The notes under the pieces are model-generated. The model saw nothing but the letters and a program-made list of their open reading frames with translations, was not told the DNA's origin and ran no database searches. Both the position numbers and the translations under genes were made by a program. DNA of 64,000 bases from Polytrichum commune (lineage: Eukaryota > Streptophyta > Polytrichopsida > Polytrichales > Polytrichaceae), in the NCBI GenBank assembly GCA_950295325.1, contig OX485807.1:10257001-10321000 (forward strand), given 5' to 3'. The first letter of the stretch is position 1. Each line of letters opens with the position of its first letter. Below are positions 2,171 to 54,492 of the stretch, in pieces.

Positions 2171-2325
2171 TAACTGCTACGTTGTCTATCTGGTCCTCTA
2201 GATCTGTACCGAGGTTGATACGCCGTTGTGTTGCTTGTACCTTCATGTGTTGTGTCGAAGTGTGAGATCTGGTTCTGCGGTTTCGGTGCTGAGGGTCCTC
2301 CCGAGTCTATCGAGGTAGAGAATCT

Positions 2326-3105: not shown

Positions 3106-3172
3106 GAATATTGCTACTAACTTATCTCAATCTGCTTAGGATCTATTGGGACTTGCTAACGCTCTCTATCCT

Positions 3173-23100: not shown

Positions 23101-26100
23101 ATAGCGGCAAGATATTATCTATAGCTGTGTTCTATGCAGCCATATCTCCTGTAAGCGCATTTGGGTTTTTATACCTTGTAATGCTTGTTGTGACCTGCAA
23201 CATGTCGAAGACTGCCCGTTTGCCAGGTCAAGTGTATGCACAATACACTGCTCTATTGATGATACTGGAGTACCTCTTTCAGATGTGGGGAGAACAAGAG
23301 GAGATGTTTTTGGGTCAAGTGCATGGAGATTTTGCGTACTGGTTGGGACTCCGTATGTATGGAAGTGGCTTTTATGCCACAGAGGTAGGGATGCGAAGTA
23401 AAGCATTAGTTTTGGTGGCATGCACATTGCAGTGTACATCACTTGGATGGCTTGAGCTTCTACCAGCCTCTCTCCGAGTGGATGAACGCTATGAGGAGCC
23501 ATGTTTATTATTTCTTCCATATCCACGCAGGAATCGGAGTTCTTTTCGCTCTAGTGTTGAGCCCTCTATTCAGAATGTGGCCACCCCAAGCTCCCAAGTT
23601 TTCAGAGACAAGAGTTTATTTGAAAGCTCTCCAGGTTTAACGGCTGAGAAGTCTGGCGCCTCTGTGGCTCAATCTAGTGCAAAGAAACTGGCACCTCGAA
23701 CACCATCTCAAGATGACAGTGAATATCCTCCGCGAGCACTCTGGGGTAATGGATATGAGAGCCGCCAGTGGACAAAGAGAGCCATGCTTTTGCAAAAGCA
23801 TGATAGATATGAAGCACAGATACGGACGTTGAACATATTTGCCAAGCATGTTATTGAGCATTTTTGCCAGCTTTATGGACTTGAAATCTGCATGCTGGCT
23901 TTACTGGTGGCAAGTTTTGCACTCCTCAATGTGGTGTCATTGGTCTACATCTGCATTCTTGCACTCTGCATCCTGCTGAACAAGCGAAGTCTGCGGACAG
24001 TGTGGCCCTTCTTTGTTGTTCTATTTGGATGTATTCTGGTGTTTGAATATGCAGTGCTGGGTAAACCACCTCCAGAGTGGATTGTGCCAGATTCAATGCT
24101 TGAGAAGAAGACACTGGTGCGGTGTGCAGATTGTTTACAGAGCTACACTGGGCACTTCTCATATTGCTGGCAGTGTTGGCTTGGTAAAGCTTTCTAGACT
24201 TATTTCTGTTGGTAGTGAAACCAATGAACAGTAGTTTGGCTGTTTAAGTCTTATGTTGCCATTTACATGCTCAACTATCTGATTTTTACTGAATATTGTA
24301 GCCTTTCAATCGATCAGACAGTTTCTTGATTTGCCTACAGATTCTAATTGAGAGTGGTCATAATCATGTATCTGGCTAAAGTGGTTTTGCAAGGTTTCTG
24401 TTATTCATTCGCTGGTGTTTTAGTTTGCTTTCTCTCTCGTGATATCCTTAGGTTGTTCTTTTGTACTTGTTGGAATATGAAGTTTGGGTACTTGGAAGGA
24501 TATTGGGCTGTTGGGAAATGCTTAGTAAGCTTGGTGGGTATTGATGTGCAGGGTTGGCAATTGATGACCGACAAATGTTGGTGGCAAACTTCATGGTGTT
24601 CTTGATTTCATGTTTTCAGTTACGAGCAAACATGTCAGCAGGGGGTTTGGACACTCGGTCATTCCATGCAGCGATAATTCCAGCAAGCGACCGGTTAGCA
24701 TGGAAGGAAATCTCTTATGAAACAACATCACAGTGGACTTGGCTGGACCATCTGCGCTTCTTCTTTTATCATTACCTTCTCCATGCAGTCCTCATATTGG
24801 TCTTCATAACAGGAACCCTGCAGTATGATGTTCTGCATTTGGGTTACCTTGCCTTTGCACTTGTATTTTTTCGGATGTGGGACACTATAATGGTGAAGCG
24901 AAATTCGGTTTTCTGGGTTTTGCGACTATACAATTTTATCCTCATCCTTGCTTCACTAGGATATCAAGCACCATACTTTGGCTATTTGGGTGGTCAAGCT
25001 TGTACACTTCCTCTTGGATTGTATAATATTGTCGGCCTATATAAGTATGACTATGGCTTCCGGATTACAGAACGCTCTGCTCTAGTTGACATCACCATCT
25101 TCTGCCTTGTTGGCCTCCAATCACATATTTTCCGGTCCCGTGAATTTGAGCAAGTGTTGCGATACATTGAGGCTCAACAGGTGGAGGCCCGTGCACATGC
25201 TCAGGTAAAGACCTTCAGTGAAGTTTACCTGATATAGAAGGTTTTGAACTTGTTCCATATCGTCATCATGCTTGGGCTCAGCTAAACAAGGGAACTTGAA
25301 GTCAGGCGACCATAAGCACATAAAACATCTTTGCATCAGTTCTGCCTGATTAGGACCTCTATGGAATGGCATGTCAACATTTCATCTGATGTTATAATTT
25401 CCCTCTTTGTGACATGAGTTCCAGAGTCCAGAATATCATGCTTTCAGTTTTCTATAGGTTGACTCATTGTTCGTAGATTAAGAAAATGAAGTGATATGGT
25501 CTGCAGGAGAACAAGGCAGCATGGAAGAAGGAGCAATTGCAACGGATAAGGGCAGCAGAAGAGCACAAGCAACATCGGCGAAAACAAGTGGAAAAGATGA
25601 AGTTTGATATGCTCCACATGCAATTACATCCTGATGTTCCAGAAGCGAACCCCTCGTCAATTGAGTTGGACGATTGCGGGGGTCCATTGCGCCCATCACC
25701 CTCACCATTTAGACATAAAATGAACACCCCCAGGTCTATTGAACGCATTGCCTCTGAACTAGCTGATGCCAGGAAACCAGATCCTGGGCCAGTGCGAGGA
25801 CTTAGTTTTGATTCACAGTCCCCAACTCACATTGCCCATTCTGATGGAAGCGACGAAGAATATGTTGGCACTAGACGGAGGAAAAATGCACTCAAAGCTC
25901 AGAGTAATGTGGGTACTGACAAGGAGCAGCCAGAAGAAGCTAATCATTCGGGGAAGCTTAGGCATGCAGTGACAGACTCAGCAGTCATCAGCCAAACGGT
26001 GGCAGGAATGGGTATGGGTAGTCCCAAGCTTCCAACTTCAAGGAGCCTGGAATCTGAAAGACTAAATCAACAAACCTGGAATAGTGCAATTCCCGGGTTG

Positions 26101-29100
26101 ATGTCTGGTGTGCAAATCCTAGAAGAAGGTGTTGCCCAGGTACAATCACTTGGGAATAAGGCATTGGCAAACTTGGTTGGGTTGCTCAGTACAGATGATC
26201 AGAATGAAAGTGGGGAAGCATGGTCAGCAGATGATGCATTTAGCAACATGACTGTCAATGAACGGCAGGAAGAACAGCAGGCACCGGCAGCACCTGTAGA
26301 GCGTACCTACCCTTCAGGATGGAGCAATATGTGGACACAACTTTGTATGTTGTGTTACTACAGCTTCTGCCAGATGCGTGGGAACACTGATATTGTGTGT
26401 TATTTCTTCTTTCTTGTTGTTTATGTCTGGAACTTCAGTTTCTTGACACTTATATTCCCTGCTGCACTATTCCTGTATGCATTACTTGTGAATCCAGGCC
26501 CAAGTAAGAATTTTTGGCTAGCCATGCTCATTTACACTGAGCTCAATATCCTACTCCAGTACTGTTACCAGATCCGAGCTACACACTGTGATCCCATCAC
26601 CTCGCCCCCCTCATGGCTTCGTGAACTTGGAATTCCTGGGTCCCTGAGCAAACACTCATTTGTCGTAAACGTCCTGCCACTCTTCCTAGTTTACTTAGCC
26701 ACACTGATGCAAAGTTCCATCAAAGCCCAGGATGGAGAATGGATGTTTGTAAATGAAAGTAACTCATTTGTTTCGAGCCGAAGGTTGCTGGATCCAGAGG
26801 GGCAAGTGCGGGCGCCAAGGAGGTTGTCCCTGCAAGAGAAGCTGTGGAAATCTCTTGACTGGGTGATAGAAATCTTCCGACGGCTTATTCGAGGCACCTT
26901 CAGGTATTGGCAAGCACTGACAAGTGGATCTGAAGCGCCTCCTCACTTTGTACAAGTCTCCATGGAGGTTGATAAATGGCCAGAAGCAGGAATTCAACCT
27001 GAGCGGATTGAGTCTGCATGTAATCGACTACTGGCAGCCATTCGATTTACACAATTTGGTAGTGGAGAGTCCCTGGACAAAGCAATATGCAGTCGGGTTC
27101 GGGTTGAAAGTATTGAGAGCAGTCCTGACAAGACAAACACAGCTTTGGCTGTTTTGGAGGTCATTTATGCAGCTCCGTGTGAGGGATCCTCCTCAAATGC
27201 TCATTATTCTTCTCTTACACCTGCAGCAGATGTGGCAGCTGAGTTCCTGAAAGCAAAAGAACAAGGCTTTGTGGAGTCAACTGGGTTTCCTTACCATATA
27301 TTATCTGTCATACCGGGCGGCAAGCGGGAAGTAGACCTATACGCCTACATTTTTGGGGCAGATCTGCTTGCGTTCCTGTATGTTGCTGTGATTTATCAGT
27401 CCTTTGTGAAGAATAGTTCACAAATCCTTGGTGTCACAGGAGGCATAGACCAGTTCCCCAAAGATTTCATTTTTGTCCTCATGGTATGTTTTCCACTCTC
27501 TTGTAACCTCTTGTTTGAGCATGTTCATAACTTTATTGAAGATAGGTGCAGTAATTATATGGCAAAGCAGGGGTACTGTTGTAAGTGAAGGCCCATGGCA
27601 AGCATCATCTTTCATTTTCACATTATTCACTTTATTCACTTTATTCACTTTACTGGGGTCTTTGTATGTGCAGACACTCTTCTTCATGATTGTTGCAGAT
27701 CGAGTCCTTTATCTTTGCTCCTTCGCAACAGGAAAAATGTTGTCATATTTTTTCAGCCTCATCCTCTACACAGTGTATGCATCAAAAGTGGTTTGGGATT
27801 TTGAGGGACAATTGGAACCTGGGTCTTCTACCAACTTCCTCATTCCTCTAAGGATTTTCTACCTGATTAAGGGGCTGTCATTAGCCCTACAAGCATTACA
27901 GATCAAATATGGCCTACCACATAAGAGTGCCCTCTATGGACAGTTCTTAGCACGACGGGTGAACACTATGAGCTGGTGTGGATTCCGCTTCTACCGTGCC
28001 CTGCCATTTTTGTTTGAGCTACGCTGTGTGCTCGACTGGTCCTGCACTACAACGGCTTTGAATATGTATGACTGGCTGAAGGTACAATCACAATCTTGTA
28101 ATCATCTGACCTGTAAGTGTTTGGCATATTTCACTATTGCATCATGCAGGTTTTTAAACCCGTAAATGCTTATGGAGCCTGATTTGGGCCTCCCAATACA
28201 TATGATATTTTGAAAGTGTACAACGTGAATATAGATTATGATGTGACTTTTTGGTAGATAGCTTGTTGTCTTGCAGGGTTTTTCTTCTTGACACCCACAC
28301 TAAATAACTTGAAAAGAGTTCGATGAAGATTTCATGTCGTCTAGTATAAATAGAAAACACACAATTAGTATGATCATGCTAAGCAACAAGCCTGGAGTGC
28401 AAGTCTTATATTTCTAAATTTCCCTAGTTATACGTCTAGTGGATGTATTCTTTTTGTCTATTGTAGTACAGAAAAGACTTGGCAAGAGAGTGAAGGTATG
28501 GTCTCTTACTTCCAGACAAGGTCAGGGCTTCCTTTTGCTCCATGGAAATTACTTGTTCCATCCAACTGAATTGAAGGTCCCTCCCTGTATTCTCTGTCAG
28601 TACAGTAGTATGAATACTTATATCTACAAACTCATAATCAATTAGGCTTGTATAATTCTTTTGTCACCATGTGCTGCAGCTGGAAGACATTTATGGAAGC
28701 CTATTTCTAGTTCAATGTGACATAAAATTGGTTCGAGCAAGACATCGGTTAGGACAGAAGCAGAGCATGTTTATCAAGTTTTGCAGTGGTGTTCTTCTCT
28801 TCACAGTTCTCATTGCCGTGATTTGGGCACCAATGCTGGTACACATCTTTACAACTCTCGGTACTAACCCAATGGGGGCATATTAGGCTTGCACAGTTGA
28901 CATGCTCAGAAGGTTGAATATGCAAATAAAACTTGAATTGTTCTCAGAGATGGGTGCAATTTTTAGAATTTCATCCTAATCTGGCTCATTGATTCTCCTT
29001 CCACATGTAATGTGTGACTGTTCCCAGAAGTTGAGCAACTTCAGTATATGTATTGTATCTCTCTTCACTAGATTCAAATTGGTATAACTTGGTGTTTGTT

Positions 29101-31332
29101 CTTAATTATGGCTGGATATAACTCAAAAAGTATGAATCTCAGGTGGTTAACATGTATGCTGTATGTACCTTTGTTGTGCAGATATACAGTAATGGCAATC
29201 CGACCAACATGGTGAATCCAATCACTGATGTAAGGGCAGGCGTTGAGGTGAAAACAGGAGGGGGGAAGTTCACTCTTTTTGAAACTGGCCTTTGTCAACC
29301 ATACTCTATTGAGACTTACCCAGCAGACGCTATGGCCTTTCTGACAAGTTATGATACTCACGATGCACAAATTATCTGTTGTGAACCTGATGCAGCTACA
29401 CTATGGCTAATTCCTCCCCGCACTCTACAAAGTTTAATAGACTCTATTGATGATAAAGATTTAGTATTCTTTGCATGGTGGCAATTCAATCGTGAAAGGC
29501 CAAAAGGAAAGGAAGTGGCAACATGGTCTGAGAATGTTCCCAACTTTGATAACGACTTGTTTGGTGTGGGGTCCAAGTTAAGGGCTGTATTGAATGGTAC
29601 TCTTGGGTCCGTGAACATTCCTGGACTTTATCCACGTTACTTTTATGTCCCTGGCTCTGGCGATGCTCGGGAGCTAGTGCCTCAGGTATGCCACTCTTAT
29701 GCCCTGTCACTGGGTCTGATTTGATATAAGGCAAGCAGAACTAATTCGGTTAATTATCTTAAATGGACAACTATATTTAAGTGGTGTCTGGTAAGGTGTA
29801 GATCTAAGAATGGACACCAAAAAGACCTGTGTTTAAAAGAGATTGGACTACGTGCTCAATAAGTAACATAATTGGGGGGTTCTATATGATCGTCTAATAA
29901 GAAAGAGAATCTTCACTTTAACAATGAATGATATCCATATGAGCTCTGAAAAGTATCAGAAAAATGGCTACGGGCACGATACAGATTCGCTAATCATCTT
30001 GCACTAATTGCGTGTTTCATATCCTACAAGAAGTGGGTCCAGAGTAAATAGTGTCTGAATAAGGCCCACATCCTTATCTTCTTACCACCAGGACTGATTT
30101 GCAACAATTTTTTGTATGTGAAGGGTGAGAGGGTCGCAGGTAACTTGACCTTGAATCGTGAAGGAGGTCAAATGTGGTGGTCATTTCTACGTGACAACCC
30201 GTCCAAAACTGATGGATGTGCGATGTCATTGGGTCCCATAGCGTTTACTGTATCCGAAGAAGTTCCTCCAAGTATGTTTCCCTGACCGTCCCTGGTTCGT
30301 CTTTTAAGGTTCAGGCATTAACTGATGCTTTGTGGGAAGGAACCAACATACTATCATAATTGATGATTGATGTACTGTTACTAATGAGGAATTGATGGGA
30401 GTTCTTGTCATAGAGTCCAAATCTAATATTATTTTTGCGCTTCTTTATTTTTCAATACTCGGGAATTTCGATCATTGACTGGGTACGTTGGTGTGGTATG
30501 CAGAGGGTTTGATAGGCGAGACTCTCAGTAAATTTAGTATTTGGAGCTTGTACATTACATTTGTGTTGGCGGTTGGGCGATTTATCCGTTTGCAGTGCTC
30601 TGACATCCGCATGAGGATTCCCTATGAGAATTTTCCAGCTTGTGACAGGTAACACTGTCACCCCTCTTTACACGGTTCTGAAGACTAGACCCTAGAGATT
30701 TTTTTGGAATAAAGGCATAGAGCAAGGGATGACAAAAGTAGGGGCTATGTTTGAGTTCAGTATTTTGGACCTTCCAATAATTGCTAGGATAAAGGTCACA
30801 GACAGCAGAAGAAATTTCATGAGTACATATTTATTGTTGCAAGAAACTTCAAAAAAGCTTCAAGGACAGTTAGACGTAACCAGCACATGTCCACAGAGAA
30901 CAATTCACTGGCAGAGAGACTATGTAACATGTAAATGGCTTTTACTCAAAGCGTGTCATGATGAACCAACTGAATGTTTTGGGAGGATTTAAAAAAATGC
31001 GTCCATAACTGACAAATTCTCTACATGCGTTCAGAATAGTCATCAGTACTTTGCTTCAACTGTATATCTTTGTTGGACAGGATCTACAGGTGTTTAACAT
31101 GATTACTTACAACATCATCTAAAGAAGCATGAACATAGTTATATATGCTACTCTGGAGCCCCAGATTTAAACTCACAAGTTTTGGTGGTGGGCCAGGTTG
31201 GTAGCAATTTGTGAAGACATTTATGCAGCTCGGGCAGAAGGGGAGCTTGAATTAGAGGAAGGCCTCTTTTGGACGCTTGTAAAAATTTACCGCGCACCTT
31301 ATATGTTGATGGAGTATACAAAAGTGGAGTAG
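17103..31332 (+). CDS. PIEZO: PIEZO mechanosensitive ion channel, complete, 22 coding exons
   Basis: This is the plant PIEZO, a very large membrane protein that opens a cation pore when the membrane is stretched. Coding exons: 17103-17151, 17425-17505, 17798-17951, 18360-18493, 18850-19018, 19349-19538, 19765-19946, 20171-20255, 20533-20748, 20860-21049, 21235-21363, 21699-21872, 21991-22227, 22597-24183, 24552-25204, 25507-27483, 27674-28081, 28680-28838, 29182-29685, 30124-30271, 30504-30648, 31197-31332. They total 7707 nt (2568 residues), close to the roughly 2,500 of Arabidopsis PIEZO, with every phase compatible. Residues 1-1410 are repeated membrane segments (the blade). About 1411-1450 is a charged helix (ENKAAWKKEQLQRIRAAEE) equivalent to the beam, followed by a long Ser-rich cytosolic loop. 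PFLFELRCVLDW (2180-2191) is the PIEZO signature PF(X2)E(X6)W. About 2259-2470 is the extracellular cap, starting YSNGNPTNMVNP. The last pore helix is near 2480-2510, and the cytosolic tail (RMRIPYENFPACDR...) ends at TAG. The start was chosen because exon 1 joins to exon 2 to give an N-terminus the same length as the Arabidopsis one. The exon 20 acceptor is AAG rather than CAG and is the least certain junction. No disabling mutation is seen. Confidence 0.95.
27623..27652 (+). repeat. Tandem 10-bp repeat in a PIEZO intron
   Basis: Three copies of TTATTCACTT lie just upstream of the exon 17 acceptor, inside the 190-bp intron 16. They extend the pyrimidine-rich stretch before the splice site. 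Confidence 0.85.
29757..30050 (+). repeat. Dispersed ~300-bp repeat inserted in PIEZO intron 19
   Basis: AAATGGACAACTATATTTAA, then GTAGATCTAAGAATGGACA, then GTGTTTAAAAGAGATTGG, and finally TTTCATATCC are collinear with the copy at 35340. It makes up about two thirds of the 438-bp intron and ends about 70 bp before the next exon. Confidence 0.75.
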
Positions 31333-31900: not shown

Positions 31901-32589
31901 AAAATAATCACTGATAAATGACCGAGATATCTAAATGTCCATTTAACCTACATTCAATCTATTTTTGGTGTTTGATGCAAAGACTTTCTTACACTCCACA
32001 ATATTATTGTGTACTATCCTGACAACCTATGCATGATCAAGTCATTTGTAGTAGTGCAAAGTCCCATGTATTCTCTATGTATGACTGCCATAAGGCCAAT
32101 GAATCGAATCATGAATAATTAAATTCTACCATAGACCCTTCTTGGAGGATTGCATGTCATTTCCATTACAATTCATACAAGGCAGCTCCGTGCATGTACC
32201 AACCATTATAAAATCTGGCCCCCAATGCAACCCCTCTATTACTTAATATGTCTAATTTTACCTCTTCCGATAACGCATGTCCTACACATGTCATAGCACC
32301 AGTCCACCGTCAGTGAATAAATTATCTCCAATCTATGAACAAATTAAATTTAGAAATCCTTGAAAGAAGGAAGAATGATGGGGAAAGAAATTTGAGTCAA
32401 CTCAGTCAGTATCCTTACTTCTCAACTATCAATTCTCAACTATCAATTGGCTATTCATTGAATTGCTTCAATTCTTTCTTGTGTTTTTACTTGAAATAGC
32501 AATTTCCTAGAATATAGTTCGGTTCATTTCTCGAAGATTTGATTTTGAACCAGTAATTTGGGGGAAATGAACTGGTTGATCTTTAACTA

Positions 32590-32951
32590 CACTAAATATG
32601 ATATTTAGTGTCATACGGTATTTAATGTCACCATGCTAACTTTTTGGATGAGTCTTCTTATGAATAAGTGAACAAAAACTGTCATGGATGGTGAATGAGT
32701 TCATCCATTTGTCAAATCCCCACCTTCTCTTGTGAAGAAATATTGTCATGGATGATTGAAATTTGGATGAAAAATCACTCGGTAAGTGACACTAGTTGCC
32801 ACACTGTAAACCTATAATCCCCCCAAAAAAATTACAAGGAATGACAAACAATGTTGGGTTAACATTTAGTGTTGGTGACACTACACTGCAGTTCACAATT
32901 AGTATTGAGCAAGACAATTACAATTGGTGACACTAAATATCATATTTAGCA
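32590..32951. mobile_element. TA-flanked MITE (CACTAAATAT family)
   Basis: The left end is TA then CACTAAATATGATATTTAG. The right end is the inverted CTAAATATCATATTTAG followed by CA and TA, a 2-bp change from the perfect inverse. It is about 362 bp with no coding content. TA target duplication and short AT-rich TIRs suggest a Tc1/mariner (Stowaway-like) non-autonomous element. Confidence 0.7.
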
Positions 32952-40000: not shown

Positions 40001-41190
40001 GGTTTCTAGTGAGGCCACGTTGCCTGTGCTTTCTCGACCGTCGGATTTGACCGATGTAACCCTCCTCCCCTGATCTCCTCCGTCCACTGCGTTTTCAAAT
40101 CAAACTAGCCGGTTTCATACCGCTACGGATAAATTAATGGATAACTCTAATATCCAACTTATATTTATGATAGAAGTGTGGCAAAATGAGGTGACCTCTA
40201 CTGCTACATCCAAGTCAAATGGATTAAAATGTCTTGTCATATGATATAATGCCAAGGTCCTTAGTATTGTGAACCAACAATATTAAACATGTAAAGTTGT
40301 ATGATACAAGCTTAAGGTCTTTAGTATTCTCTACACAAGATTCGGTCTTGCAACTTGCCAACACAAAAAGGTTTTCAACACACTAGTAAGTAACATTGTT
40401 TTGGAAGTTGACGTTCTAGGATATTGTAGTGTATATAGGACATTTTACTACCTTGAACCGTTCCCCATGGTGTAGGATTGTTTGGGCCCACGGAGTGATG
40501 GTTTTAGGTGTCATTAGTGGCGCCACCTCATAGCGGCCTCCACTACCTTCATGTAGGGTAGGTAATGAGTACCCACTCTATCTTGGGTTGGTTGAAAGTG
40601 GGTTTAGGGTGGCTTGTCAATGCCTATTCTAGCCATTTTATTCACAAAGCCAAGGAGGTAGGCCCACAAACCACAAAGGGAATCAATTCTAGGCATAAAG
40701 GGGGTCGGGTCCTGGGATGCAAGGGGGTCGGTACCCAGGATGCAAAGGTGACGGTTCTTCAAGCGAACTAGGTGGGATCATGGAGGTGGCCATGTGGCTT
40801 GGTGCACCGTTATTAGTTGGGCTTTGATCTAGCTTGGGTCTAGTACCCAACTATGTTGTGTTGGTTCTAGGAAATGAAGGTGGGGGTTCCTTATCACATG
40901 CATGTGGCCTATGGATTGGTTTAAGGAAGCTAATAGTTTTGACTTTGAATTTTTGTCAAAGATTCAATTGAGGCTAAAAATATTCTTTCTTTCTTTATAC
41001 CTATGTTTAGCCCAAAGGTTGGCATGAATATATATATTTCTCATATCAACCACACAACCGTATGTATGTGCAATAGCTCAAAGTATTTGTTTAAGCACCC
41101 TCTACCTTGCCTTACATGAAATTCGATGCAAGCATTCTTTGACCCCTAACAATCAATAAGGTAAGTGGACCTAATTCAATTATCTATTAT
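37063..41190. other. Intergenic DNA, no recognisable gene
   Basis: Open frames at 37953-38177, 38313-38591 and 38572-38778 carry no motif I recognise. A short imperfect tandem pair (GGGGGTCGG...GGATGCAA) lies at about 40689-40747. Nothing else can be supported. Confidence 0.55.
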
Positions 41191-41330
41191 AAATGGACGC
41201 ATATATTTGAGTGGTGGGTGGTTAGATGCACATATCTAAGAATGAGTATCAAAAAGACATGTATTTGCAACAAACTGTACTATGTGCTCAAAATTTGTTT
41301 ATCGAACTAAATTCAATATTCAACATAAAT
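41191..41330 (+). repeat. Dispersed repeat, partial forward copy
   Basis: AAATGGACGCATATATTTGA, then GTGGTTAGATGCACATATCT, then CAAAAAGACATGTATTTG match the first third of the family. Similarity fades after about 41330. Confidence 0.65.
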
Positions 41331-41826
41331 GGACGATCCTATGTGACCTTCTTATGGTCTATTTGTTGGTGGACTTTGACACTACACATCAATTTGAGAT
41401 TGGCTCTTAAACCTTTTGGGATTGATCACAACTTCTTCATATACACTTGCAGATGTCCATAAATTTCAACCTTGCAAATCTGAGTAGTATAAGACATGTA
41501 GCAAAAAAGTAACCAAATAAGGCCTATCTACCTAAGTAGTATAGACATGCGCTTTTTGGTGCATGTTGGTGTTGCCTCATGCAGAACACTGCAAGAATCA
41601 TTAAGTTTCAAGTTTTTTTTTACTTTCACAGGCCAAAGTTCACACTGAAGTTTATCAACACATTTGGCATGTGATCCAAAGTGCTCTAAGTAAACTGATT
41701 AAATGAGGCCATATGTATTTTGACACAAGTGGCTGCAACTTTTCCAAGTTGATCGCCACTTGGACTACAAGATAAACAAACACGATTCATTCAAAATCCC
41801 ATTATGACCAATCAATGGACGAGCTA

Positions 41827-42168
41827 CACTAAATATTGTATTTGGTGTCACCAGTTCATTTTGTCGTAAACCTAATATTATATGTCATTCCTTCCTTGTA
41901 AGAACATTTGGGCATTATAGATTTACAATGTTGCAGTTATTGTCAATTACTAAGGTATTTCATCCAAATTTCAATTGTCCACGACAATGTTTGATCACAA
42001 AAGTGTTAGATGTAGAATATATCAAACTTTGTTTCAATTATGGCATGGACTTCATCCAAAATTCAATCATCCATGGCATTCCTTGTAGACTTTTTCATCA
42101 CAAGTGTCATTAGAAAAGTCACCACATTGACATAAAATACCATATGACACTAAATACAATATGTAGTG
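41827..42168. mobile_element. TA-flanked MITE (CACTAAATAT family)
   Basis: TA then CACTAAATATTGTATTTGG at the left; GACACTAAATACAATATGTA then GTG and TA at the right, nearly perfect inverted ends. It is 342 bp, non-coding, with internal repeats of CATCCAAATTTCAAT-like sequence. Same family as 32590 and close to 57047. Confidence 0.8.
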
Positions 42169-42639
42169 TAGTGATCTGGTACTAAGTTGAAAAGGAAAAT
42201 TGGCACCTCTATTAGTATTTGTACGATCTATTCATGCAAATTGATGGTTGGAATCCATCAAGGCATGCACATGTGTCAGCCCTAAACCCCCACCCTTATG
42301 CGTCGTAGTCCAGGTGGGAGCTTGTGGCTCACATTAACCTTTCAACGTGGTGAACATTGTAGCACAGTAATAATGCCACTTCCCATTGCGACATCAACAA
42401 GTGATAGTTTATTTCAAGACTAGATATACAAGCATTAACAAATGTTTTTCATAACTACCCTCTTAATCCTCCACTTGAAATAGTTGCAATTTTAATTCCC
42501 CTTCAGCTTCCCTAATACCAATGCCCTAAATGAGGTGAGTTGTAGGTCAAAACCCACACACTTTCCCCCTTTACTAATTCCTTGCAACCCCAATTCCACA
42601 ACTACCTACCCCAGCCCATGCATAAATGTAATTAGTCCC

Positions 42640-43560
42640 CAATGAAACCCCTTCGGCGACCCAAGATCCCAGCAGTTGCTCCCAATTCCGCGTTGTTCAC
42701 ACTCACTTCTCACCCGTCATTGCCCGTCACGGCTCGGGGGCCCCCACCTAAGGTCCAGCAGAGTGTTGGTTCGGACTGCCTTGCCTTCCCGGCCACCTCC
42801 TCCCCTCGTCATATCTAGGGGCCACTCAGCTGACGGCCCAGTGAGCGGCCAGGCTGCTGAGTGCTTCTCCCTCAGCTCAGTAGCGATGTCCTCGAATCAG
42901 CACCGAACTGGTCAAGGTGCCGAGAAGCCTCACCATCCTTGTATCCCTTCATGTTCATTGCGTACTTAGTGGGTGCCTGGGAGACGACATTAGGATTTTA
43001 GAGTAGCCGCCAGCTCGCATCCGCTTGCTCCCTCTTGATTCAGCTGCCTTGGTACTTCTAAATGTTGCCTCGCATTTTAGCGTTCTCGTCCTCTTCCCAC
43101 TGTGGAAATCCACATAATCACTTAGCTTCAACTCGCCTCAGTGCATTTGCTCTGCCCCCTTCAACCTCGAATCTTATCCTTTAGATCTCGACCCCTGGAA
43201 CCCACATTGTGCCAAGAGGCCAGCAATTGGGCCCTGCCTTCAATGTTCAGTCACCTCTTCCCTACATACTCACACCAGCTCGGATTCCATTCCGGGTGCC
43301 GCTCCAGAAGCCTCTTTCGATTTTTCTTCACCAAAAACCCCCGCAGAGTTCCTCCCCGGCGTTCCGCCTTCTTTTCCCGAACCATTATCCCAGAGAGAGA
43401 GCCAGCCAATTGAGCAGAGAGCTCTCTACAGTTCCGGTTTTCACCTCTGATCCTAAAACTTTGGCTTTTGCCCCCTAATCCTATCTTAGTCCAAAGCCTA
43501 GCTTAAAACTAACCCATGCCTAGCCTAATGTGAACAATAAGGGATTGGAGTTTGCGACTC
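42640..43560 (+). other. GC- and pyrimidine-rich island, possible LTR or UTR fragment
   Basis: About 900 bp of markedly higher GC with a strong C/T bias on the plus strand inside AT-rich DNA. Short open frames (42676-42969, 43141-43413) are rich in Pro, Ser and Arg and look composition-driven. A TGTCAGCCC at about 42275 resembles the start of some Ty3-type LTRs, and TGGAGTTTGCGACTCC after 43536 could be a primer-binding site. Neither boundary is proven. Confidence 0.35.
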
Positions 43561-44104
43561 CCCCTCACTCACTAATTTAACCACATTAAATCCTATCGTA
43601 ACCATGAGTTAATCATTAAGCTCAACTTACCCAACCCGACTCACTCCTAACACCTAATCAATCTTAAAAATCCCTTCCACTCAAAGCACACAAAATTCAC
43701 CCTTCAAGAGCAAACTCCAACATCAATTCTATCTAAGTTCTAAACTCCATTGCAATTCTAACATTACGGTTCCACTCTTTTTATCCTTTTGAATAATAAC
43801 ATAAAACATCAAAGTTTAACTTCTAATGGTTTAAAAGGGTTAAGAACACATGTGGGACCCAACTTTGGGCTCACAACATGCAGTTGAGTTGGGACAATGA
43901 ATGATAGAAATGGTGAACCCAAGCCCACAATGCTATGGTTAAGGCTAGTGTATGCTATTAGAAATGTGGTAGACTCATGAGTCATGACACGACAATCTGA
44001 CACAACAATTCAACACAAAATGACCAAAATGATATGATCCTAACACTTCGTGTTGAATCATCGTGTCAAGAAACTATCACATTTCCAGTAGTGTAAGAGA
44101 TAGC

Positions 44105-44440
44105 TCTATATGGGGAATCGATCACCCAAATAGCAATGTGCATCAAATTATCAATCAATATGCAGATGACATGTTTTTACTATGAAGGTGGCAAAGCAAA
44201 GCATCGGCAACTTTTTTAGGATCCTCCACACTTTGGGTTTGCAATCAACTTTGATTATCAATTGGACAAAGAGTGTGGCATATTGGAGAGGCCCAAGCAA
44301 TAAACCAAATTGGCTTAGAAATCACCAATGTGAATGGGGGGAGCTTGGTGGTGACTTGTCCAAACTCCTTGGCACACTTTTTGGTCTGCACCTTGGCCTT
44401 CATAATACATTTATATCTTCTTTATTTGCATGACAATAAA
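44105..44440 (+). pseudogene. L1-type LINE reverse transcriptase fragment
   Basis: GIDHPNSNVHQIINQYADDM is encoded at 44114-44173, with the catalytic YADD box at 44159-44170. A frameshift follows, and the next frame gives FFRILHTLGLQSTLIINWTK then SVAYW, the usual downstream RT segment of plant L1-type LINEs. Only this part of RT remains; no endonuclease, RNase H or poly-A tail is seen. Confidence 0.75.
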
Positions 44441-44569
44441 AAAATTATTTATAGGTAATATATTTATTTCTTTGGAAATTTAATGGAACTTTGACAATGG
44501 CATGTGTGTTTAATTAATCCACAACTAAATCGTACATTTGTGTGTTCTTTTAGGTATCTCAAAGAGAAT

Positions 44570-45240
44570 TTGTGGCCTTCAAAGTGATTGCCCATGAATG
44601 CCCTCCCAACTTATTTGTCCGCATATATGGAGGATGGCAATCCATGGGATCATGCTACTTTGCAATATTGTCCTTGGTTTATTAATTGTCCAATGATTTT
44701 TCATCTGGCAGAGGAGAATACAAAGAGGACTCAAGCATCGGTCTCTCAAAAACATGACGATGCAAGTGTGTTGAAAGATGATAGCTAGTTGCCACCTGTC
44801 CCACCAGATAAAGGGGGAAGACGCAAACATGGTGCAAAGGCTACAGACCAACCAACTCAAGTGGAACCTCCCTCTGCCACTACATTGGAAGTTGTGCCCA
44901 AACATCGCGTTCAGGGAGTTGTTGTTGTTGTTGTTCCAACTCCAACTCTTCGATCCCAACAACATTCACAACAACTAGCCCATGCCAAGGGTAGAGAGAA
45001 TACGGGTGACGTCATCATCGCAAGCATGATTGGCAAATGTGTCAATTGTGGGAATATATATATATATATCAATATCAACAATTATGGATACTAGGGCCAA
45101 CAACCACCCACTATTGGTAGAGGCAATGGAGATTGTTAAATGGTAACATTTCAATTTTTTGTCATTTTCCTATTGTCCTTTGGTTTCACATGTGGTCAAG
45201 TCATATTATTGATTGTTATTTGTTTTTGGAGGTGTTTCAA
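44570..45240 (+). pseudogene. Unidentified coding remnant upstream of the methyltransferase fossil
   Basis: 44578-44788 and 44789-45094 are open in more than one frame with protein-like content: HECPPNLFVRIYGGWQSMG in one frame and DKGGRRKHGAKATDQPTQ in another. The Lys/Arg- and Pro-rich middle looks like a linker. It may be the N-terminal part of the methyltransferase-like protein that follows, but I do not recognise a domain. Confidence 0.35.
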
Positions 45241-45251
45241 GGGGGGGGGGG

Positions 45252-46560
45252 TCTAAGGTTGATCTCATTATTGCATGCCGGAGGGGCTTCTGGTTCCTAA
45301 TGCCTCCACACCTCCCTATGTCATTCCTCCTTGGAATATCCACGAGCATGATAACGTTGAGGCCTTATTTGAACTTTCTAGTGCTTACCTTAACAGTGGT
45401 GGTTGCATGCTCTTGTTCCTTCTAGAGGTCAAGAATGTTTGGGATGGTGTGAGGGCATATGCCAACACCTACTTCACCATTGTGAAGAATTGGTGGGGCA
45501 TCAACGAATTGTTGTTGTGTTTAAGAGTTGATTCCATAAAAAACTATTTTTGTGTGTTTATAGTTCAATGATGTGATTGGTGTTTATGAATTGTGATTAA
45601 TCTATCATTGCAATGGCAAAACCTTTCTAAAGCACATCCACTCATGAAGTCTAATATTTTGTGGTTTTGGTAGGCTCAACATTTTCAGGTTTTGTTGCTG
45701 ATACCCAAAAGCAAGTCCACCAATCAATTTCAATTTCAATAGGTGGAGGTGTAGTTGATGTTGACATAGAAAATCTAGACATCTTCTTTAATCTCACAAA
45801 GTCATCATAACAACTCATGAACATGGTTGTACCTTGGAAAGGAGGACGGGAAAAGGTCATGTATCCGTGCATATTTTAATCGAGGCATTGACTACACTTG
45901 GAGTTGTGGTACTTGACGCATTTGCCTCCACATGTAATAATAATCATATAAACAAAACAACAACATAATTCATCTAAGTTATGTTGTATTTGGAACAAAT
46001 ATTGATTAATTATTGGTTTTGAATGTCAAGCGCATCCATTCATGCATGCAAGCGTAATGGGCGTCACATCATGGCATTTGAGGAAGATTATGCTATCTCC
46101 GATGCAATCATAGCTCCTTTGTGCATCGTTAACACCACATTAACCTTTGCACATGTGGGTTAGAATGTATCCCTTGATGATGATGATGATGATGATGATG
46201 GGCCCATTAGAAAGGTTGCCAAATGCTCTCGCATTAGTAAGTAAATTTGCAATATGTATAGTATGGTCGCAATGCCCTCAAAGATATAATGAAAGTCAAT
46301 TATTATATTTGGCCATCTAATTTCCTATTTCTTGTGCATGCAAGCAAATGATAGCCGAGGCATCACCTCCTTCCACAATGGTTTTGCCTCCATATGCACA
46401 ACAAATTGCACAAGTCATGGTGGTCACAACAACTATGGTCACCCATTGAAGGTCTAGACGTTTGATTCGCAATCCATATGTAAATGATGAGGCAACAAAA
46501 GGCAATGAGGACAATAGCGTGTTTCGTTCTAGTCATAACACAACATATAGCACATTGAAT
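45252..46560 (+). pseudogene. Decayed beta-class amino-methyltransferase-like gene
   Basis: Pieces in order: SKVDLIIA (45252-45275), then after a frame change TPPYVIPPWNIHEHD (about 45305), ELSSAYLNSGGCMLLFL with EVKNVWDGVRAYA, and WWGINELLLC to about 45520. After a gap, ILIEALTTLGVVVLDAFAST (about 45873-45932) and CKRNGRHIMAFEEDYA...IIAPL (46047-46121). In SAM-dependent amino-methyltransferases these match motif IV (strand then PPY/PPW), the GG-x-LLF strand, then motif X/I (LD-x-FA-S) and motif II (GRH...FEED). Motif IV before motif I is the beta-class order. Further frame follows at 46341-46560 (MIAEASPPSTMVLPPYAQQI). Stops, shifts and non-coding gaps show that it is dead. Substrate (N4-cytosine or N6-adenine) cannot be told. 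Confidence 0.6.
46176..46201 (+). repeat. (GAT)n microsatellite, poly-Asp in the fossil frame
   Basis: Uninterrupted GAT/ATG triplets that encode a run of aspartates in the frame continuing from the methyltransferase remnant. Confidence 0.95.
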
Positions 46561-46773
46561 ATGTTCACACTTTTGATTTGTATGTGTGGATTTTGATTTC
46601 CACCTCTATTTCGATAACCCACAAACAGTGGGCATGGTTTTGTGTGAGCAAATGAGTGTGTTGGTTTCATGTATGCCATGCTCACTTTTTTCATTTGTAT
46701 ATAGACTTCATTAGTCTTGGGAACCTCCAATGTGCCGGGTTTAGGGACCCCTAACCCATATCGATATGTTTAC

Positions 46774-46844
46774 CACTCTACAATATCCTATGCCATTTGG
46801 ATAATATGTAGAATATAGTACCATGGGTATAGGATACTAGAGTG
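46774..46844. repeat. 71-bp hairpin
   Basis: CACTCTACAATATCCTATGC at the left pairs with GTATAGGATACTAGAGTG at the right, around a loop of about 30 nt. Probably a tiny MITE relic. Confidence 0.65.
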
Positions 46845-48880
46845 TGTGTTTCTGCATGGTTATACTCCACTATCGCTCACAAGTTACCAGTCATCGCTCA
46901 TCCCTCATTCCTCATATGATACAATTCCCTTATTAATGCCCAAAACTCAAAGACATCCTCCAAAAATTTCCGGTTACACTCGAACAAGAGACCTTTGAGG
47001 CAATTCAACCCCAATTGATCCCCATACGTTATGATTTAACTCTATCACTAGTTAAACCACAACTTGAAGCATATTGGTCGATGATTCATCAGTATCTCCA
47101 GAACTCCCCATGAGTCCTGGATAACACACTTCGGAGTTCACGACATAGCACCTGAGATGATTTTTTTCTATTATAAGTTGAACACCTGATGGCAAGTTGC
47201 ATGGCTGATTGGCCCAGGGCTCCAAGAAGAAGCCACATGATGTGGCTTTGTAGTTGTGGAGATCCTTTCTGACAAGGGGACACTCTTAAGTTGATATAAA
47301 GTGCACCCAAGTTGCAACAACAAGCGACTATGGGTGTAATGAAATCTGAATCCATGGTTGGATGTATTTTCATAACCTCCAGCACCACACCAACAGAGGG
47401 AGAGTGGGGGTGTTATCACATATGGACGTGCTCATCATTCATCCAACATAGTAGCCCTGAAATCGCATGCATTTCGGGTGTTACTACACTAAATATTGTA
47501 CACCCTAAGCTCCGCAACATCAACCTCCGCAATATCACTCGTTCTCTAATATTATGAAACCCTAGGGAACATATGTTCTTGGTTCAGATTTCCCTCCTTA
47601 TTGCCACATTTTTCTCTTGTATATCACGGGTTTTGCCATTAATGCAAACCACCAAAGAAGTCAACCCACACCCTCACATTCCGCCACATGTCAATATGTG
47701 GAGTGTATTCTTATGCCACTCGTTAAATTGTTGGTGCATGGGTCTGCCACATTTTCGGGAAGGTCAAGTTGGAGGTTGACATGTAAAGATGGATTGTGTG
47801 TTATGATACCCTAGATTTCCCATGTGAGGATTTGTTCTAAACCCGTAACCCTAATCATGAACCATGGTCTTCTCCCTCTCACATGTGTTGCACATCTTTC
47901 GGCAATTCAATCCACCAATGTGGGAAGCTCTTTAAGGAGTCGAATACATACAACTGCGTGCATTACTCATTGTGAAGGTCACCGCTTACTAATCTCAAAT
48001 GCAAACCTTATTATTTCTAGATATCCTTAGAAGTTGAGTTGTTTTGAATATGAGATCGAGTATCATGGAATTAATATTGTTGTAGGACACTTCCATCAAT
48101 TGTTGATGAAGATATAGAAGCCCTTAAATCGTTGTGCATTGCACCAATAGGCAATGTTGAATCAAAACATAGACAATGCTTAATTCAATATACAATGGCC
48201 AATGTCAAACATGTTGATTAATGTGGCATCATTTCATGCTTGCAATTTTGAATAATGGGGTATGCGTGATATTGCATCATATAGCATATATTAAGTTGCG
48301 CAATGAATCAATCAGTGAGCATTTGGTGTTTGGGTTTCAAAAAATTATCAATGGCAATCCATAACTTGTAATTGTGTGTGCTCTGATGTTTGGACTTCAA
48401 TTCTATAGTTTGCAATGGATGACTACCACATACCTAGCAATTTCTTACTCCAATTTCATGTATGCACCTATCCAGTTTGAAGCAAGTGAAAATATGTAGT
48501 ATGTGAAGTAAATGCTTGCAATGCCACCACATGCTCTTTATTTTTATTGCTTTTGATCATATCATCATTGCTTGTTGCAGCTCATTACAATTGTATCCAT
48601 CCACTCAATAGTTTGTTGGAATTCTTTAGGTGTGTTTTTCATCCCCAACTTGTTTTTATGATGTTGGCTAATATGTCTCAACAATTCATGGTGTAACTTT
48701 CTAGGTGTGCTTGTTAACAAAAATTGTGGTATGAGGCATATGGAGGATAGTGTTGGAGGTGACAAGGGAGGTTATGAAAAATCCATACCTAAGACCTAGT
48801 CTCTTGGCAACTCCCATGTTGACTATCATCATGGAGAGCTTGATATTTTGATCGAAGTTCATGTGGATGGTGGAGGTGGT
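46845..48880. other. Intergenic DNA, no recognisable gene
   Basis: Open frames on both strands at 47089-47419 and 47573-47814 have no motif I can name. An unpaired TACACTAAATATTGTA at about 47484 is a single end of the CACTAAATAT MITE family. Confidence 0.5.
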
Positions 48881-48889
48881 CGTGGCCAC

Positions 48890-49090
48890 AACAAAGTATA
48901 GAGACCAAGTAAAAGGAAAGGCTTCCCCTAAGGCTAGAGGTCCTAATTGGACATAGATGGAGTGTCTACTTCTCATTGAGGAAAAATGGATTGAATTTGG
49001 GGGAAAGCTTCATCCCAACCATCCTCCAAGTCACAAGAGAAATTTACTTATTGGAAGGATGTTTGGTGCAAGATTGAGAGTAACTTGGAT
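48890..49090 (+). pseudogene. Possible Myb/SANT-like domain remnant of a transposon protein
   Basis: In one frame, KASPKARGPNWT, a stop, then MECLLLIEEKWIEFGGKL. The W-T-x-x-E-x-x-x-LI pattern is the first helix of Myb/SANT-like domains carried by plant transposon proteins. The second and third helices are not clear. Tentative. Confidence 0.3.
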
Positions 49091-50110
49091 GCCATTGTAG
49101 ATTTTAGATCACATGATCAAACCTCGGGGATGGACTTTTCATACCTTGTTGTGTTTGATATCAAATGAAGTTGCGAAAGCTGCGAGATTCGACTATTGCA
49201 CCATTGATATTTTGGTGTGTTCAATCGCCACCATACCACATGCAATGATTTTATCTACTGAAATACCATGTGTTGCATCATTTCCATGTGACCTTGCAAA
49301 TTTGCTTTAGTAATATGCTCCACCGCTCTTGTGTTGGGTGTAATTTGTTCTTCAGAGCAATGTGATATGTTCCACTCCAACATTGAACGTGACATTCTAA
49401 TAGATGCCAAAATAAAAATGAACCCAACTTGAAATAAATTATTGGATTAATAGACTTGATTTGTAATTCATTTAGAATGTTGGAGGAATCACATGGTTGA
49501 GGTTTAGAAGACCAAGAAGATGAAGTCACACCAATGTGCGCAACATATTTCATGAATGGAACTTTGTGTAATGCCAATAATTGTGGTTAAGTGTTTTAAC
49601 CAACCTTGTTGTTATGCAATGTCCGATTAGGTGGACCCTCAATCACTCCAACATATTTGACATATGATAAGAGCATTTCAGGGTGAGTGGTCTAATGTGT
49701 ATGTTACCCTAGCAATAAAGAAAGGTGTTTGTTTGTAAGTTTTCCTTACTGTAGCACTAAAAGTAGTTAATTGCCTAACCATTATAAATACAACATTACA
49801 ATCAACATGCACAAAATGCAAACTAAGTCGAACATCTTGATGATCAACTATGATGGAGGAATGAGCTATATTAGAGTTGCATTGGAAAGCAACAAACGGG
49901 TAAGTTGTCTAAATATTGAACATGTCAATTCTAAGTGTTCTATGGTGAGAATGTACTGCAATCATCCTTTAATAAATGAATAATTCTTGTATGTTTAAAT
50001 CAAACAACATTTGATACTTATAATCATGGACACGCCACTATTGTAGGATGCCCCTTCAAGTTTTTTGGATACATGATATGACGATATATCCAAAGTATGA
50101 GGATTCAAAC

Positions 50111-50330
50111 TTATGTTGATGGAGCTTCACATCCTGAAAGTGCACGTGATATATGCCACAAGTTTTCTATACAAAAGTTTGCAAACTCTTTGCATGAAGT
50201 CCCATAAACAACAGTCCAGTTAGGATTTGAGGAGTTCCCCATCACACACAAATTCATTCCACCATCGGAGGCCACTAAGAGAAACATTGCGGTCAACCAA
50301 AATGGAGAGGTCATGCATTAAGCTAAGCAA
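50111..50330 (-). pseudogene. hAT transposase C-terminal remnant
   Basis: The minus-strand frame ends WTVVYGTSCKEFANFCIENL followed by SGCEAPST. This resembles the hAT dimerisation region of plant elements, where a W-x-x-YG segment leads to an F-A-x-x-x-L stretch and an SGCER-N-WS motif; here the ER is changed. Only this terminal piece is preserved. Confidence 0.5.
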
Positions 50331-50509
50331 AAAAAAAAAATTGGAATCAAGTGATGAAAGTCCTTGAATGTCTTGATATGTACATATGGTTGGCTTCATT
50401 TTCTCTGTCCGAGTCTTGAGCTTGTAGTTTGCCATTGCACATGTATACCTTTGTGGAAAATACTAGCCACCAACATTGTGACACCCATCTTTGATAGGGC
50501 ATAATAGAT

Positions 50510-51520
50510 CATGTGCGGTTTGCATTGCGGGATGAGAAGTTATGGTGTAGGCATACTTCCATGTATGCAGAACAACGCATAAAAATCATGCCTTGTTTTT
50601 GCAAAGTTTGCAAAAGGATTATATATATATATATGGATGGCAGTGGAAACAATTGGCAATCACCTCATGGCAAACGGGAGGCATCACTCTTTTAGAAGGT
50701 GGAGGGGCATGGGTGTGTGTGACGAATCTGATATTGAATGGGATAACCATGTTCACATCAATGTTGGTCTCTTTCCTTGAATTCCAATGGATGAGAATGT
50801 TGCACTACAAAGTGAATGTTGTTCCATTGCCATGTGAGCAACCAATACTTGAACTTGAAGCACATCAACAAAACCTCTCAAACATGGAGGGCAACCTAGA
50901 AGATGCGGCTTTGGTTGACCATGTAATGGAGGTTGTGCAACAAGCGAGAGATCATGGTGGAGAAGTGCAAGCATAACCATACTCAATGGAAGAGCACGAA
51001 ATAATGAATGTCAACATGGATGCAAATGCAGGCACGCTAAGGTTCATGACTCACTTAAAATGTCCAAGGGAGCCTCTAGTCCACAAGGCACAACCCTAAA
51101 TATTGTGAAGGATATGAAACTTACATATGTATTGTTGTCATGCCACCCCTTATTTGCTTGGTCTTCTATCATGAAACTAATAGCAATCATGTTTATAATG
51201 ATTATATGCATAATTCATGGGGTGAGCAACATATTTTTGGATAGCCTTTTGTCCATTATGAATAAATACACTATGCCTTATCCAAATTTGTTGTCTGCCA
51301 AAATATACCACGCAAAGAAGCTTGCAAAGAAGGTCAGCCATAGCTATGAGAGCATACATGTTTGTAAAGAATTATGTATTTTGTTCAAAGGGGAGGCATA
51401 TAAAGATTTGAAAAAATGTCCAAAATGTGTTGCGGATCAATACAAAGCACATGGGAGGTCACAAGTGCCAGTGAGCATCCTCATATATTTTACTTTGATT
51501 CTATGACTAAGTCAAATGGC
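50510..51520 (+). pseudogene. CACTA (En/Spm, TNP2-like) transposase remnant
   Basis: An early piece reads RIKIMPCFCKVCKR (about 50570-50615), like the CPC-x-x-C of the transposase-associated domain. 51060-51506 then reads NLLSAKIYHAKKLAKKVSHS, YESIHVCKELCILFKGEAYK and DLKKCPKCVADQYK, closely following the TNP2 pattern of a Lys-rich helix, YE-x-I-x-x-C-x-x-x-C-x-L, and a C-x-x-C finger, ending VPVSILIYF. Stops break the pieces and the catalytic core is absent. Confidence 0.68.
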
Positions 51521-52615
51521 ACAAGTCACTGCAAATTGTGAAAATGCTCAAATAGGCTCATTTGAAAAAGCAACATATAGCATTGCATTTGGAAACAAAA
51601 CGGAGTCATAAGCACAACCTACAAGATCAATTAGAACAATTGTTTATAACAAAAAAATTGACTACAATACTTGGCTGGAAGCAGGAAGCAAATTTGATCC
51701 ATCGTAGTGGTATGGTGTCAAAAAGAAATAATATTTCTTCAATTTTCCTTATTACAAGATAAGTATTGAATACATTTTCCAATTTCCTTAATGAAGTGCA
51801 TATTCCAGTGAAATATTTCCAAGTTTGTGTTGATCATGGGATGGATGTGGATTAAGGTATGTGGGTTATTTTTGGCTTTTGTTTACATGTTCAATCTCTG
51901 ATGGATTGGATTAACACAATGATATTTGTGGTGCATTGGAAGATTTGCAACAAAAAAACTGCAACAATCCGACTAAATATCAGCCCCCCCCCTTTTTGGA
52001 TTTAATAATGTTTATCAGAAGTGCAAGTTTGTACATCCCCTTGTATTGTTACCTTAGGGGTTGAAGCTTTGTTGCATCCAACATCCAACATCCCTAACAT
52101 GGTAGTGGTTATCACATTGAGTGAGAAGATGTGGAGCTTGCAATTGCATCATTGTTGAGGGGGAATTTTGGCATTAGATGAATATTAAATTAAATTTATG
52201 TGGAATTGCAATGCGTACAAAGCACAAGAATGCCAATTACACAAAAAGCAAGGACTTGGATTTCAAAGAGGTAGCACCTCTATTATATATTGCTTACAAT
52301 TGCCTCCACCATCCCAAAAATGCACTACAAAATCCCAACCTTGTGTGGGTCTTGATCAGGGTTCGTGAGGCATGGATGGAACAATTGGTTGTGGCTCCAC
52401 GAGAATGCATGAGTGGGTGTGACACTTTCGCAAAGGAGAAATATCATAACTATGGTCCTTGCGATTATGAACATTGACGTGGGTGGAAACACATTTGTCC
52501 TCACAACCATCACCAACAATATTATTGGGATTGCAATTTTTTTTTTTATATATACTCTCTTTGCACCATTTTGATTGAAACCCACAAAGTATTCAGCAAA
52601 CATTAGTTCCAAAGG

Positions 52616-53978: not shown

Positions 53979-54136
53979 GGGTTTTTGAATTTCAATCTAC
54001 ATACACTACTATTTGCAATTAGGTTGGCTTCACAAATAGGATTCCTCTTTACCCATGCAATAGGTTTTTGAATTTTAACTTACGTAGATTGCTATGTGCA
54101 ACTAGGTTGCCTCTGCAAATAGGATGCCTCTTTACC
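53979..54136 (+). repeat. Tandem duplication of about 80 bp, interrupted by the MULE
   Basis: Unit 1 begins GGGTTTTTGAATTTCAATCT and unit 2 begins AGGTTTTTGAATTTTAACTT. Both continue through CAATTAGGTTGGCTTC / CAACTAGGTTGCCTCT to CCTCTTTACC. Unit 1 then continues CATGCAA, while in unit 2 that continuation appears only after the foldback element (at 54502). Confidence 0.8.
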
Positions 54137-54492
54137 GCCCCGGGCTAGATCACATGTTCATTTGGCTGGGCCCCGCCCCTCCCACGCCTCCTTCATTGCC
54201 CAGTCTTCCTACCCACACTTGCATGGGAACTCTTCCATGTTGGGAGCCAATGTGACAATACCCGGTCACTTAAGCCATTAAGCTCCTTTGGCATGTGAAG
54301 GAACTCCATCAATTAACTTGGGAATAATGAAAGTGATGTCAACATGAATATTTGTAGTTTTGACCAGGTATTGTCACATTGGTTCCCAACGAGGAAGCGT
54401 TCCCATGCAGGTGCAAGCAAGAAGACCATGCAATGAAGGAGGGGTGGGAGGCGTGGGACCAAGTCGAATGAAGATGTGATCTAGCCCGGGGC
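54137..54492. mobile_element. Long-TIR foldback element, MULE-type, with target duplication
   Basis: Arms of about 130 bp (54137-54270 and about 54355-54492) are inverted copies. Both start GCCCCGGGCTAGATCACAT and run through CGCCTCC, CCTTCATTGC, GCATGGGAAC and CCAATGTGACAATACC. The spacer is only about 85 bp and non-coding. The flanks repeat CTCTTTACC / CTCTTTATC, a 9-bp duplication with one mismatch. A 9-11 bp duplication with long TIRs is the Mutator-like pattern. Confidence 0.82.

Follow-up and report, generated by a model that had tools for sequence, protein, structure and literature searches.

A probable pseudogene of a beta-class DNA amino-methyltransferase, decayed and apparently intron-containing, in a plant nuclear genome

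The known enzymes with which the locus described here is best compared are the beta-class DNA amino-methyltransferases of family PF01555, e.g., DpnA (5hek), CcrM (6pbd), RsrI (1eg2) and PvuII (1boo). The locus resembles them in its VLDxF motif I and in the stretch with a conserved R and E that comes after it, and more weakly in an upstream DLI strand and a GG strand. It differs from them in being dead, in carrying S where FxGxG has its first G, in its presumed introns and N-terminal extension, and in having no clean, in-register xPPY. According to the excerpted published accounts used here (PMC8566409, PMC8885841), N4-cytosine methylation by bacterial-type enzymes has been reported in few eukaryotes, namely a liverwort and bdelloid rotifers. 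The Marchantia enzymes DN4MT1a/b have in common with our locus that a bacterial-type amino-methyltransferase is encoded in a plant nuclear genome (PMC8566409, PMC8885841); unlike the locus, with which they are compared here by their published description, they are active, and the excerpts report no extra terminal domains for them. Bdelloid rotifer N4CMT is likewise a bacterial-type amino-methyltransferase in a eukaryote, but it is active and, as described in the excerpted account (PMC8885841), has an SPPY motif and a chromodomain, neither of which was seen here. Finally, what the DIRS retrotransposons with DAM and the Ty3/gypsy and DIRS retrotransposons with DCM (PMC6338049, in excerpt) share with the locus is the notion of a DNA methyltransferase gene carried by a mobile element; in contrast to these elements, none of the analyses made here links a reverse transcriptase, integrase or LTR to the gene.

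We analysed a window of 64 kb of eukaryotic, probably plant, DNA (i.e., the whole stretch of DNA, to which all coordinates refer) and found that the region of approximately 44594-46540 on the + strand is probably what decay has left of a nuclear, intron-containing gene for a beta-class DNA amino-methyltransferase (PF01555), an ordinary pseudogene being the most likely reading of the remnant. A dead enzyme of this class had been proposed in the first-pass annotation, and the proposal gained support from matches in PHROGs, Pfam and NCBIfam, from plasmid neighbours found with tblastn and from a profile scan based on PDB enzymes, as well as from a partly circular profile of 17 proteins. The C-terminal part resembles the family and is the better-supported half of the methyltransferase reading. 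The putative anatomy of the gene, with provisional exon borders, is as follows:

44455-44553, + strand: possible intron 0, GT..AG, GC 0.265 on 44456-44553, suggested from composition and splice dinucleotides alone
44594-45142, + strand: tentative exon A, N-terminal part, starting MNALPTYLSAYMEDGNPWD, a linker with basic GGRRKHGAKA (44813-44842) and CVNCGN (45038-45055)
45143-45241, + strand: presumed intron 1, GT..AG with the AG at 45240-45241, GC 0.355 on 45143-45249
45242-45545, + strand: tentative exon B, with VDLIIA, a frame change, TPPYVIPPW, LNSGGCMLLFL and WWGINEL (45491-45511); it would be the motif IV half, a weak assignment
45546-45673, + strand: presumed intron 2, GC 0.312, no clear donor
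45674-45933, + strand: exon C, with a stop at 45808-45810, GGREKVMYP (45841-45867, at the HPTxKP place), a frame change and LIEALTTLGVVVLDAFAST
45934-46030, + strand: presumed intron 3, 97 nt, GC 0.216, GT..AG, inside the motif I region
46031-46236, + strand: exon D, with ASIHACKRNGRHIMAFEEDYA (46032-46094) as the segment after motif I and an in-frame stop at 46161-46163
46237-46344, + strand: presumed intron 4, donor GTAAGT at 46237, AG at 46343-46344, GC 0.308 on 46238-46344
46345-46540, + strand: tentative exon E, putative C-terminal tail, with no recognised domain

The tentative exons have a GC content of 0.396-0.443, compared with 0.216-0.355 in the presumed introns that separate them (with near-exact borders), a contrast that is only suggestive, since about a quarter of the local 100-nt windows have a GC content of 0.36 or less. 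Tentative exon A had no family match in Pfam and its second ORF had none in Pfam or PHROGs, while its GGRRKHGAKA stretch is one that we take, by its appearance, to be AT-hook-like. In-frame stops also interrupt exon A (44786-44788 and 45092-45094), and the reading frame changes inside exons B and C. Given these stops and frame changes the gene is dead and, lacking an xPPY tetrad in register with its preceding strand, this copy makes no enzyme.

The earlier proposal had been built on five peptide strings, which we located as follows:

45258-45275, + strand: VDLIIA
45308-45334, + strand: TPPYVIPPW
45389-45421, + strand: LNSGGCMLLFL
45876-45932, + strand: LIEALTTLGVVVLDAFAST, containing the putative SAM-binding motif I
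46044-46094, + strand: ACKRNGRHIMAFEEDYA

All five are on the + strand as claimed; they do not, however, share a single frame, and stops separate them. A resemblance to methyltransferases beyond chance is probable only for LIEALTTLGVVVLDAFAST and ACKRNGRHIMAFEEDYA. Within the former, VVLDAFAST (45906-45932) corresponds to motif I (VLDxFxGxG) on the C-terminal side and has lost the glycines of that motif; with a profile of PDB enzymes (see below) it is the best segment of the window, though segments as good occur in at least 5 of every 100 shuffles. Upstream, GGREKVMYPC aligns at the HPTxKP place between motifs IV and I, where only the P of HP is retained.

We searched the region against protein family libraries, both as raw frames and after joining the ORF with LIEALTTLGVVVLDAFAST to the next ORF (with ACKRNGRHIMAFEEDYA) across the presumed 97-nt GT..AG intron 45934-46030, a join that was picked by eye. 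The search against PF01555 that the first-pass annotation had suggested came back without a methyltransferase match when run on the six raw frames of 44500-46600, with just two unrelated, weak Pfam matches (E = 0.12 and 0.19). Similarly, four unjoined ORFs had no PF01555 match in Pfam and none in PHROGs, and an unjoined ORF of 58 aa hit an unrelated EF-hand model below its cut-off (Pfam, E = 0.012). Matches to methyltransferase families appeared only for pieces that bridge the presumed intron (Pfam, PHROGs, NCBIfam). Specifically, the joined motif I piece matched phrog_3008 with E = 0.00059 (four of the five PHROGs families listed are named methyltransferase and the fifth has no known function), PF01555 with E = 0.0036 over profile positions 172-216 of 221 (17.7 bits, against a curated cut-off of 26.7), and the NCBIfam models PRK13699.1 (E = 0.0073) and CcrM (E = 0.012), the NCBIfam matches likewise staying below the curated cut-offs (16 of 244 bits). 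The whole composite of 241 aa matched more weakly than the joined piece (E = 0.046 in Pfam, 0.0062 in PHROGs and 0.13 in NCBIfam).

Using the same composite as a tblastn query (E ≤ 10), we obtained weak matches in seven plasmid records, all annotated as DNA methyltransferase (best E = 0.1), including four Burkholderia plasmids with a nearly identical match. Among six phage records, three were annotated as DNA modification methylase and three had no annotation; the ORFs beneath the match in the latter three carry DPPY and VLDxF. Scans of viral contigs with exon B, the motif I piece and alignment A2, and of genome contigs with the composite and the motif I piece, returned pattern matches and no confirmed relatives. 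A phmmer search of the PDB with the composite gave a single match (E = 1.5), which we took to be due to chance.

To compare the region with chance expectation, we scanned both strands of the full 64-kb window with frame-tolerant profiles and set the scores against those of block-shuffled windows. The fairer profile, which gave weaker numbers, comprised eight PDB enzymes with solved structures that had been picked without regard to the window. With this profile the segments of LIEALTTLGVVVLDAFAST and ACKRNGRHIMAFEEDYA were the two best single-frame segments in the 64 kb (22.3 and 18.9 bits; the next scored 17.2), and they are neighbours, about 150 nt apart and in the correct order. At least 5 of 100 shuffled windows had a best segment of 22.3 bits or more, and the chained score of 34.4 was matched by one shuffle in 100 (maximum 36.0). 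In our judgement, the fact that the two top-scoring places of the whole 64 kb adjoin in the right order is a stronger point than the shuffle counts.

Higher scores came from a profile of 17 beta-class proteins, i.e., 17 of 20 extracted, non-duplicate proteins (L021, L023 and L024 were excluded for having no [DSN]PP[YWF]; L008, L011 and L012 had not been extracted). These scores make the case look better than it is, since 9 of the 17 (L001-L005 and L025-L028) had been fetched for their resemblance to the composite, which makes the profile partly circular. Its best segment ends at 46112 and scores 30.0 bits, equalled in none of 100 shuffles (maximum 27.7); the second ends at 45932 (27.1 bits), and the third lies elsewhere (22.4). 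The corresponding chain scored 72.1, whereas 60 shuffles averaged 44.0 and reached at most 50.7. Further chains just downstream (62.8 and 55.2) were taken as tails of this chain, and the best more distant one scored 50.5. A second profile combined 11 sequences, L012 being represented by a wrong ORF; with it the two segments ranked first (23.1) and third (19.6), the first being equalled in at least 8 of 100 shuffles.

The N-terminal half is more tentative. By itself, exon B scored -1.4 bits with HMMER; its frame-tolerant score of 15.7 bits was equalled in 5 of 200 shuffles, and when only 45140-45867 was shuffled, with everything from motif I onward left intact, a chain as good arose once in 400 (17-protein profile, partly circular). 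From these two counts we conclude that the upstream half probably, and not certainly, belongs to the same enzyme. The string PPYVIPPW, previously read as the catalytic motif IV, is present and scores near the catalytic columns, but it is a weak candidate for motif IV. The strand that is read here as VDLIIA passes straight into xPPY in the relatives (17-protein profile, alignment), whereas in the locus a frame change comes after VDLIIA and TPPY starts 32 nt later in another frame. Moreover, the scan places both VDLII (12.7 bits) and TPPY (13.9 bits) near the catalytic columns, where the MAFFT alignment places PPW, meaning that PPYVIPPW is one of several competing registers for motif IV.

By analogy with its family, the parent enzyme, while living, would have used motif I to bind S-adenosylmethionine and placed a methyl group on an exocyclic amino group in DNA, that of cytosine (N4) or adenine (N6). 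Its motif order would have run from motif IV through an HPTxKP-like element to the SAM-binding motif I. The presumed introns, which are still present, argue against a retro-copy made via mRNA; they favour either a host gene that decayed in place or a copy made at the level of DNA. The dead copy itself has no function; as a fossil enzyme of bacterial type in a plant genome, it would suggest that the lineage once had, or still has, a working copy, and its sequence may serve as a probe for finding one.

Several other explanations were weighed against that of an ordinary pseudogene. The methyltransferase could be an artefact of chance, i.e., plant DNA from which a reader selected peptides across frames, and this would fit with the raw frames having no match, with the marginal E-values, with the join made by eye and with the chain score of the independent PDB profile being equalled in 1 of 100 shuffles. 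We nevertheless regard it as improbable, given that three libraries and two tblastn collections agree on one enzyme class and that the two best segments in 64 kb adjoin in order. Large DNA viruses can carry beta-class methyltransferases, and the locus could accordingly be what remains of an endogenised one; against this speak the presumed introns, the viral contig scans with pieces of the window, which gave no relative, and the pieces scanned with Pfam, in which no viral family reached its cut-off, making a viral origin very improbable indeed. The parent may have been an N4-cytosine methyltransferase of the DN4MT type or a member of another lineage. An origin as a dead copy from within the bryophyte DN4MT family (the sperm N4-cytosine methyltransferase) would agree with the presence of such a bacterial-type enzyme in a land-plant nuclear genome (PMC8566409, PMC8885841, in excerpt), yet the Marchantia enzyme is described in the excerpted account as having no additional N- or C-terminal domains (PMC8885841), whereas the locus seems to have a long N-terminal extension (tentative exon A); we consider this origin possible and rather unlikely. 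With little confidence, one may also read the locus as a dead member of a plant lineage of its own, separate from DN4MT, made up of intron-containing beta-class amino-methyltransferases with a long N-terminal extension; a mobile element acting at the DNA level may have spread this lineage. If true, such a lineage with spread would amount to a transposon-borne amino-methyltransferase in a land plant; among the literature matches listed, no title was recognisable as this locus or as such a system.

Spread by a transposon had been one of the origins put forward in the first-pass annotation, which placed the gene among LINE, hAT and CACTA remnants. The gene would then be cargo of a mobile element and the locus a dead insertion, an account that we find unlikely and that obtained no support from flanks without a transposon domain in Pfam, from a window with no second copy of the gene and from what is only a weak terminal-repeat candidate. 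The surroundings, which that annotation described as transposon-rich, contained no transposon domain (transposase, integrase or reverse transcriptase) by Pfam at E ≤ 1 in six frames of 40001-44600 and 46500-51600, where decayed frames might conceal one. The search for the hAT remnant consisted of these flank scans. Pfam, run on a single ORF and on one piece joined by hand, gave no confirmation of the LINE and CACTA remnants; QYADDMFLL (44156-44182) looks like a LINE reverse transcriptase motif. A TIR/TSD scan speaks in favour of cargo: it returned two distinct candidate pairs around the gene, whereas 11 other placements yielded no pair. The best pair has 12-nt ends at 44352 and 46417 (one mismatch) and a 6-nt duplication, TGGTGG. 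Since the match stops at 12 nt (by eye) and the left end lies within an ORF (44170-44433) that continues through it, we took this pair, without proof, to be a chance occurrence; its right end, in addition, falls in tentative exon E. Taken with the repeat scans, the TIR/TSD scan around the gene gave nothing firm. A perfect CACTACTGGAAA, which we assume to be a CACTA-like end, is found at 44082-44093 on the - strand and would also suit a cargo gene; however, when up to two mismatches are allowed, 9 occurrences of this string were counted where 6.89 are expected, at least 9 turn up in 26 of 100 shuffles, and the occurrence at 44082 is the only perfect one.

Elsewhere in the window, we observed other repeats and one recognisable gene. 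At 54137-54492, adjoining an 83-nt tandem repeat at 53980-54136, there is a MITE-like inverted repeat whose arms of 132 nt are 83% complementary and separated by 92 nt. Another inverted pair, at 41824-42171, has 27-nt arms (CTACACTAAATATTGTATTTGGTGTCA; 93% complementary, 294 nt apart) and possibly represents a MITE family; the first 17 letters of its arm recur at 47484-47500. Inverted copies of 105 nt, 77% complementary and 9.4 kb apart, lie at 32586-32690 and 42068-42172. The ORFs at the left end of the window (1-3126, - strand) we take, from their motifs, to be a copia-type gag-pol. A gene for a Piezo mechanosensitive channel occupies 25495-29721 on the + strand (Pfam THU_Piezo1, E = 2.1e-19; Piezo_cap, E = 1.1e-17); its upstream part may be the long ORF at 22548-24194, which itself matched nothing in Pfam.
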